Both the position numbers and the translations under genes were made by a program. Of a stretch of 47,525 nt of DNA, positions 41,934 through 45,196 are shown piece after piece. The first letter of the stretch is position 1. Each line of letters starts with the position of its first letter. The notes under the pieces are model-generated. The model saw nothing but the letters and a program-made list of their open reading frames with translations, was not told the origin of the DNA and searched no databases. The stretch is from Anaerolineae bacterium (GTDB lineage Bacteria > Chloroflexota > Anaerolineae > Aggregatilineales > Phototrophicaceae): positions 1 to 47,525 of the forward strand of contig JAPKMU010000002.1 of NCBI GenBank assembly GCA_026645745.1, written 5' to 3'.

Positions 41934-42326
41934 ATGCACGAGCTGTCGATTGCGCACAGCTTGGTCGAAGTCGCAAGCAAGGCAGCGCTGAACGCAGATG
42001 CGGGGCATGTTGCACGCGTGCATTTGCGCCTTGGGCTGTTAGCGGGAGTGGAGAAGGACGCGCTCCTATTCTGTTATGATATTGCCGCAGAAGGAACTGT
42101 TCTCGAAGGATCGACCCTCGAAATCGAAGAACTCCCTGTGATTGTTCACTGTGCAGCGTGTGGTGTGGATACAACGCTTGACACGATCCAGCGGTTCGCT
42201 TGTGGGAACTGCGGAGCACTGACAGGGGATATTCGGCAGGGAAAAGAATTGTCCATCGATTATCTGGAATTGGAGACAGAGGATGCAGCCGAGAATATTG
42301 CAGATTCAGCAGAGCGTGCTGAGTAA
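41934..42326 (+). CDS. hypA: Hydrogenase nickel incorporation protein HypA
   Basis: A 130-residue protein. The N-terminal MHELSIAHSLV contains the nickel-binding His2-Glu3. The zinc site is two CxxC pairs, HCAACG and ACGNCG, about 20 residues apart. HypA delivers nickel to the large subunit with HypB. AAGGG eight bases upstream supports the start. It diverges from hydB across a 158-base region, and overlaps hypB by 44 bases. The 158-base gap shows no clear promoter that I would assign. Confidence 0.94.
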   Translation: MHELSIAHSLVEVASKAALNADAGHVARVHLRLGLLAGVEKDALLFCYDIAAEGTVLEGSTLEIEELPVIVHCAACGVDTTLDTIQRFACGNCGALTGDIRQGKELSIDYLELETEDAAENIADSAERAE

Positions 42327-42945
42327 GAATGATGAACTTGCACGCGGACTGCGTGATCGATTTACTGCTGCTGGCGTAACGACAATCAACGTTGTCAGCA
42401 GCCCCGGCAGCGGCAAAACCTTGCTGCTGACCAAGACGATTGAGCGTTTGGTTGCACGCGGGTATCGGGTGGCAACATTGGTTGGCGACTTGGCAACGGA
42501 CAATGACGCACGCCGTCTTGCCGAAGCAGGTGCGCCTGTGCGCCAAATTGTGACAGGGGGGAATTGTCACCTTGAAGCGCATATGATTGAGGAATACCTC
42601 GGTGATTGGGATTTGAAGGATTATGATTTCCTGTTCATCGAAAATGTCGGCAACCTCGTCTGCCCATCAAGTTATGATCTGGGCGAAGATTTCCGGATTG
42701 TTATTCTCTCTGTGACTGAAGGGGAAGACAAACCGCTCAAGTATCCGCCGATGTTCAATTCGGCTGATCTGGCGGTGATCACAAAGATCGACATTGCTGA
42801 AGCGGTCGAGTTTAATCGTGATGCGGCGCATGCCAGCATTCAATCGGTGCGTCCCGGAATGACAATCCTTGAAGTGTCGGCAAAGACGGGCGAAGGCGTG
42901 GATGTTTGGGTTGATACGCTGATTAAGCGCCATGAAGGAACATAG
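42283..42945 (+). CDS. hypB: Hydrogenase/urease nickel incorporation GTPase HypB
   Basis: A 220-residue SIMIBI GTPase. The P-loop is VSSPGSGKTLLL; switch and metal region VGDLATDNDARRL; the family block GGNCHLEAHMIEEYL; FIENVGNLVCPSSYDLGE; and the base-recognition TKID in VITKIDIAEAV. It lacks the His-rich or CxxCGC nickel-storage N terminus found in some HypB proteins. It powers nickel transfer by GTP hydrolysis. The ATG lies 44 bases inside hypA; the N-terminal RILQIQQSVLSKNDELA resembles family N termini, so the long overlap appears genuine. A terminator follows. Confidence 0.95.
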   Translation: MQPRILQIQQSVLSKNDELARGLRDRFTAAGVTTINVVSSPGSGKTLLLTKTIERLVARGYRVATLVGDLATDNDARRLAEAGAPVRQIVTGGNCHLEAHMIEEYLGDWDLKDYDFLFIENVGNLVCPSSYDLGEDFRIVILSVTEGEDKPLKYPPMFNSADLAVITKIDIAEAVEFNRDAAHASIQSVRPGMTILEVSAKTGEGVDVWVDTLIKRHEGT

Positions 42946-42964
42946 ACAGTCTGGTTGAACCATC

Positions 42965-42996
42965 AAAGGATGCTCACAATGGGCATCCTTTTTAAT
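42965..42996 (+). terminator. Terminator after hypAB
   Basis: AAAGGATGC (42965-42973) pairs with GCATCCTTT (42983-42991), a 9-bp stem with a 9-base loop and a short T run after it. Confidence 0.85.
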
Positions 42997-43037: not shown

Positions 43038-43066
43038 TTGCCATTCGCGTCAGCAATCGTTATGAT
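43038..43066 (+). promoter_or_regulatory. Sigma-70 promoter of glmS
   Basis: TTGCCA (43038-43043), a 17-base spacer and TATGAT (43061-43066). It is the best promoter match in the window. Transcription would begin near 43073, about 25 bases before the ribozyme cleavage site, and the leader to the glmS ATG would be about 275 bases. Confidence 0.7.
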
Positions 43067-43090
43067 GTGCGAGCACAATGCGAATAGGGG

Positions 43091-43310
43091 ATCAGCGAGC
43101 GCACGGACTCGGCATACGCCGAGTTGACGAGGTGGCGGTTGTCCTTCCCAAGAAGGACTTAAGCGCGGAAAAACGCGCGAAAATCGACAGATCAGCGGAT
43201 GCCGCCGGGGTGAATCCACCATCCCATCTGAATATTCCCCTCCGAATGGATGCCAACTGTGAAAACCACCGGGTAACTGGTGCGACAAGCGGACGGCAGC
43301 GTGGAACGTC
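43091..43310 (+). ncRNA. glmS ribozyme-riboswitch (glucosamine-6-phosphate responsive)
   Basis: The leader has the ordered core of the glmS ribozyme. A|GCGC at 43098/43099 fits the cleavage site and the 5' P1 strand. A P2 hairpin pairs ACTCGGC (43107-43113) with GCCGAGT (43118-43124), running directly into GTTGACGAGG (43123-43132), a near-invariant core element. GGCGG (43134-43138) can pair with CCGCC (43202-43206) in GCGGATGCCGCC (43195-43206), matching the conserved GGCGGAUGCC block. A P4-type hairpin, CACCGG/CTGGTG (43267-43282), is capped by a GTAA tetraloop after GTGAAAACC. Two added hairpins (43141-43158 and 43163-43179) enlarge the insert. Known ribozymes cleave on binding glucosamine-6-phosphate and lower glmS mRNA. 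The 3' boundary is approximate. Confidence 0.85.
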
Positions 43311-43348
43311 TTTCAAAAACCTGATAACAGATCTAGGGAGACTCTGCC

Positions 43349-45196
<1,848 letters not shown>

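Follow-up and report, generated by a model that had tools for sequence, protein, structure and literature searches.

Background

The glmS ribozyme is the textbook example of a ribozyme that takes a metabolite as cofactor, and in Bacillus the 5'-OH product of its cleavage is degraded by RNase J. Variants from Deinococcus-Thermus, described by McCown, Roth and Breaker in 2011, are said to carry extra stems inside the catalytic core. Throughout the family a preformed pocket binds glucosamine-6-phosphate (GlcN6P), which joins in the acid-base catalysis, and cleavage leads to mRNA turnover (PMC11602151, PMC2258182). In the numbering of the Thermoanaerobacter tengcongensis (Tte) core, helix P2.1 is formed by residues 28-30 with 43-45 and P2.2 extends from 2:56 to 5:53; the last of these pairs is C5-G53 in Tte and is poorly conserved, yet single mutation of either base costs about 1000-fold (PMC7125110). 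The P4 loop is typically a GNRA tetraloop with a pyrimidine at its second base (PMC2258182).

Here we analysed a 47,525-nucleotide stretch of an Anaerolineae genome (hereafter the window), focusing on the leader of its glmS gene. The leader RNA resembles the crystallised glmS ribozymes (T. tengcongensis, Bacillus anthracis; Rfam family RF00234) in its cleavage-site strand, in the core strands GACGAGG, AUCGA and GCGGAUGCC, in the P1-P2-P2.1-P2.2 layout, in the GNRA-looped P4 and in its site before glmS. It differs from them by about 42 additional nucleotides that fold into two hairpins in the P2-P2.1 joining strand, and by an A.A in place of the C-G at P2.2 position 5:53. With the canonical glmS ribozymes of Chloroflexota it shares the phylum, the target gene and the occurrence of A.A or C-G at 5:53; unlike it, these have a core spacing of mostly 20-23 nt and are devoid of both hairpins.

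Results and discussion

A glmS ribozyme in the glmS leader

The glmS gene of the window (43349..45196, + strand) encodes a 615-aa glutamine-fructose-6-phosphate aminotransferase with SIS and GATase domains (TIGR01135 glmS equivalog, 776.9 bits for a cut-off of 418), whose nearest GlmS proteins, at no more than 78% identity, belong to Anaerolineae (Anaerolinea-type) MAGs. Upstream, RF00234 spans 43087..43307 (+) end to end, from model position 1 to 167, with 34.8 bits and an E-value of 1.2e-6 (cmscan of 461 bases against 4227 families). The match ends 41 nt ahead of the glmS start, locating the ribozyme in the 5' leader of the gene. Since its score lies 2.2 bits under the curated Rfam gathering score of 37 bits, a default-threshold scan of the glmS leader reported nothing, and a lower threshold was needed. 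We nonetheless retained it as a covariance match because of its E-value, its completeness and its genomic position. In a profile search of the 5.66-Mb assembly (655 contigs, 87% complete), 43087-43307 was the sole match with E < 1 (E 3.6e-6), and is the only credible one in the genome. The minimum free energy (MFE) fold of the isolated ribozyme strand was also more stable than all 200 of 200 shuffles (z = -3.1).

The first-pass annotation of this locus had proposed an ordered glmS ribozyme core, and its elements lie where it had placed them. The AGCGC cleavage-site strand is present upstream of P1 and, aligned to the AGCGC of RF00234, puts the predicted cleavage site (A-1/G1) between A43098 and G43099 (43098..43099), as had been suggested; AGCGC is found in nearly all relatives. 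The P1 hairpin, GGACTCGGC ... GCCGAGTT, occupies 43105..43125 according to both the RF00234 alignment and the MFE fold. It is followed by the strand GTTGACGAGG (43123-43132, read from the sequence), containing the near-invariant GACGAGG (43126..43132), which the numbering of PMC7125110 assigns to the 5' strand of P2.1. The 5' strand of P2, GGCGG (43134..43138), pairs back with CCGCC (43202-43206) as anticipated, and the P2 helix covaries across relatives. Further on, AUCGA (43183..43187) includes UCG, which corresponds to residues 43-45 of PMC7125110 and, by this homology, forms the 3' strand of P2.1 and a part of the GlcN6P pocket. The segment UCAGCGGAUGCC (43192..43203) provides the 3' strand of P2.2 and the beginning of the 3' strand of P2, with A53 opposite A5, as read from the RF00234 alignment and from concerted changes at 5:53; within it lies the strand GCGGATGCC (43195-43203, read from the sequence). 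All strands of the P2/P2.1/P2.2 double pseudoknot, GACGAGG, AUCGA and GCGGAUGCC, are thus found in the sequence and, together with AGCGC, are conserved across 123 distinct expanded cores. P2.1 itself hardly varies, so that covariation speaks neither for nor against its pairing. The Rfam secondary structure draws UCGA-N4-UCRG (43184-43195) as a small hairpin; we dropped this element, PMC7125110 placing UCG in P2.1. The P3/P4 support domain is present in the RF00234 alignment, with an AAA / GACA-AG internal loop and a P4 end hairpin (43267..43282) capped, as the first-pass annotation had recognised, by a GNRA tetraloop, GUAA (43273-43276).

A putative sigma-70-type promoter, TTGCCA-17-TATGAT (43038..43066, +), precedes the ribozyme. 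It matches the consensus at 10 of 12 positions and its location ahead of the ribozyme fits, although the consensus scan, which detected 2 sites where shuffled sequence would give 0.5, is weak evidence alone. The near-consensus promoter previously described here thus exists, with weak conservation in relatives: -10-like boxes close to their cleavage sites are mildly enriched (29/107, 20 expected). Upstream of the promoter lie genes resembling, by eye, the hydrogenase maturation genes hypA and hypB (41934-42995). They are followed by an inverted repeat and a T run (~42968-42995) that look like their terminator, a region for which Rfam offers just a weak STnc390 match.

A two-hairpin insert beside the ligand strand

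GACGAGG and GCGGATGCC are separated by 62 nt in the source RNA, compared with mostly 20-23 nt in canonical members of the class, which agrees with the roughly 60 against 20 nt noted earlier. The RF00234 alignment leaves 51 nt unmodelled at this place, where the model has 6 positions; the curated Rfam model therefore has no positions for the stems of the insert. From the places that the Tte-core numbering gives to GACGAGG, UCG and UCAGCG, the insert can be placed after the 5' strand of P2 and ahead of the second P2.1 strand, which belongs to the GlcN6P pocket. The first-pass annotation was thus right about an enlargement, which it had ascribed to the P2 side; the additional RNA lies in the P2-P2.1 joining strand and does not lengthen the P2 helix itself. 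In place of the short joining strand of the crystallised architecture, the source RNA has the two-hairpin insert 43141-43182. A short strand at this place characterises the known architecture but does not enter into the catalytic definition of the family.

Among relatives the insert follows the layout GGUU-hairpin1-YUAA-hairpin2-GAAA-AUCGA. In the window it reads, on the + strand, GGUU (43137-43140), hairpin 1 (43141..43158; 7 bp and a 4-nt loop, here CCAA), the conserved YUAA linker, here UUAA (43159..43162; CTAA or TTAA at the DNA level in 73 of the 118 inserts that are 32 nt or longer), hairpin 2 (43163..43178) and a conserved GAAA (43179..43182). Both of the extra hairpins previously reported are therefore present, the second ending at 43178 and not at 43179. 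Across 123 distinct inserts the median length is 42 nt (range 16-120). Hairpin 1 measures 18 nt in 92 of the 123, with a GNRA loop in 57 of these 92 (chiefly GCGA and GCAA), while hairpin 2 varies in length and four members have a single-hairpin insert.

Both hairpins covary strongly. Since an initial choice of boundaries favours pairing, maximised pairing counts were replaced by tests with fixed geometry. With the first 18 nt of each insert read at fixed positions as a 7-bp hairpin, 84.7% of hairpin 1 cells are paired; exchanging 3' arms among relatives lowers this to 60.0% (maximum 64.4% in 2000 shuffles), and shifting the register by 1-3 lowers it to 33-52%. The arm-exchange nulls ignore shared ancestry and the shifted-register nulls retain it. 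For the outer four pairs of hairpin 2, the same exchange test gave 96.5% paired cells, against 52.7% under the null.

The constancy of hairpin 1 in length and loop class, the conserved YUAA and GAAA linkers, and the position of the insert next to the ligand-pocket strand might also be expected of a second sensor or a protein-binding platform by which cleavage is tuned or gated, for instance through an RNA-binding protein or in response to a further metabolite, rather than of a passive scaffold. We consider this improbable, as hairpin 2 is unconstrained in both length and sequence, four members manage with a single hairpin, one family places canonical and expanded forms before the same gene, and no conserved single-stranded pocket is evident apart from the two linkers.

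Alternation of C-G and A.A at P2.2 position 5:53

In the source RNA, P2.2 position 5:53 is A5.A53 (43103 and 43194). Among expanded cores whose cleavage strand can be recognised, this A.A, accompanied by an intact 4:54 pair, occurs in 72, C-G in 28, A-U in 3 and U-A in 2. C.A occurs in another 6 expanded cores, of which five have the AGCG[A/G]C strand seen in glnA-linked copies (see below). Canonical cores likewise comprise 15 with C-G, 5 with A.A and 2 with U-A, and the C-G / A.A alternation is also seen in canonical cores outside the class. Such a concerted change would reconcile the poor conservation of 5:53 with the harmful effect of single mutations. It also suggests that A.A works at this position, the concerted change being all that points there.

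Distribution across Chloroflexota

A glmS ribozyme had been thought noteworthy in a Chloroflexota-like lineage. This expectation was not borne out, as RF00234 was found at E <= 0.01 in 199 of the 396 genomes sampled from the class Anaerolineae (116 above the cut-off) and many other Chloroflexota have one; in a sample of the phylum that includes class members, 45 of 151 genomes do. The out-of-class glmS ribozymes that we read were mostly canonical. The signature of the expanded form, GAAAATCGAN{2,7}TCNGCGGRWGCC, of which the terminal GAAA is part, occurs in 162 of 396 class genomes, and the reversed-pattern control gave none in class genomes among the matches listed. Of 301 sampled Chloroflexota genomes, 263 fall outside the class, and just 2 of these have the signature, before glmS in one (G584) and before a DegT-type aminotransferase gene in the other (G405). 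The same leader recurs upstream of glmS in related genomes, 110 of the 123 distinct expanded cores preceding this gene.

The two-hairpin insert is consequently a conserved Anaerolineae architecture, not a peculiarity of one genome. With a source assembly in 655 contigs, one might suspect mere length drift or an assembly artefact; the covariation and the signature counts refute this idea, which deserves practically no credence given 123 distinct inserts, from many genera, that share one layout and have covarying stems. Other enlargements were observed elsewhere: at L249:1545-1627, from a member of the Chloroflexota outside the class, an insert lies between AUCGA and UCAGCGG, corresponding to the P2.1/P2.2 loop, and in some canonical class members (L008, L016 and L028) P1 is enlarged to about 100-140 nt.

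The presence of the trait is patchy across the lineage. Within the family of the source genome, seven genomes have the expanded form (G019, G163, G201, G252, G326, G350 and G366) and four the canonical one (G146, G356, G381 and G386). In two genomes of the same genus (G055 and G083; GlmS 73% identical), a ribozyme before glmS was not detectable, and the ribozyme is therefore not indispensable. These two cases imply that loss occurs within the genus, and with an RF00234 score under the cut-off they would suit a reading of the source RNA as a decayed, inactive remnant in which the low score, A5.A53 and the insert all reflect loss of function. We judge this very improbable: no core strand is damaged, pairing is perfect or almost so in P2, P4 and the two insert hairpins, the A5.A53 state is common to 71 relatives, and relatives bearing the same insert can score 60 bits or more.

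Expanded ribozymes before other genes

Besides the 110 before glmS, the 123 distinct expanded cores include 6 before glnA, 6 before neither gene and 1 too near a contig end. The glnA-linked cores are those of L067, L138, L142, L145, L151 and L239. The downstream genes of L067, L138, L145 and L151 encode glutamine synthetases according to Pfam, that of L138 also being type I according to NCBIfam, while glnA was identified in L142 and L239 solely by similarity to the L067 protein. The ribozymes lie at L067:227-434, L138:1410-1620 (approximately), L145:1415-1618 and L151:1410-1650 (approximately). In L183 an expanded ribozyme before glnA occupies L183:395-602; both L067 and L183 have one ribozyme before glnA and a second between glnA and glmS. 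A 6S RNA gene (RF00013, 47 and 66 bits) was observed directly 5' of the glnA-linked ribozyme at L145:1208-1383 and L151:1217-1392.

Five of the six glnA copies have the cleavage strand AGCG[A/G]CUG, as against the usual AGCGC[A/C]NG; the copy of L239 retains AGCGC. By exact search, the AGCG[A/G]CUG form was found in 4 of 396 class genomes. Were its purine bulged, C-G54 and U-A53 pairs could form and P2.2 would be kept in a shifted register. The glnA copies with this changed strand may act as a slow-cleaving or non-cleaving GlcN6P switch.

Further expanded cores precede a gene for a fusion of a CofD/YvcK-like protein and a phosphohexomutase (L179), a glutamate-synthase-like gene (L178, whose product the L177 product resembles by eye), an FAD-linked oxidase gene (L182) and a DegT-type aminotransferase gene (L185). 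It is conceivable, at slightly less than an even chance in our estimate, that Anaerolineae evolved a distinct glmS-ribozyme architecture, with its two hairpins on the pocket side, and carried it from glmS to further genes, forming a small GlcN6P regulon that couples amino-sugar supply to nitrogen assimilation through glnA, the glutamate-synthase-like gene and the YvcK-like/phosphohexomutase fusion.

Proposed mechanism

Judging from homology, position, conservation and covariation, the glmS leader of the source genome is very probably a glmS ribozyme-riboswitch carrying the Anaerolineae insert, and we infer that its cleavage depends on the ligand. The leader transcript would fold into the P2/P2.1/P2.2 double pseudoknot plus P1, P3 and P4, and GlcN6P, bound beside P2.1, would serve as catalytic cofactor for a self-cut between A43098 and G43099. 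Degradation of the 5'-OH product would then lower GlmS synthesis when GlcN6P is plentiful; a full-length RNase J homologue is encoded in the source genome (583.9 bits, cut-off 400). The insert most likely acts as a scaffold that leaves the chemistry unchanged. Hairpin 1, with its constant length and frequent GNRA loops, probably docks on another helix and would thereby stiffen the pocket, this docking being less certain for the source RNA, whose loop is CCAA and not GNRA. Hairpin 2 is probably a tolerant outlet, its free length suggesting that it does not dock.

Conclusions

We found no published account of the enlarged variant in the literature; the architecture would be less new if the extra stems of the Deinococcus-Thermus variants occupy the same place. 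A large covarying insert beside the ligand strand, in about two fifths of the sampled class genomes, indicates that the catalytic core can accommodate a new support domain there and apparently makes use of it. As both forms precede the same gene in one family, swapping the insert offers a direct test of the contribution of peripheral RNA to catalysis. The C-G / A.A alternation, for its part, offers a reason why 5:53 seemed unconserved despite harmful single mutations. Finally, the glnA-linked copies would bring nitrogen assimilation under GlcN6P control as well.
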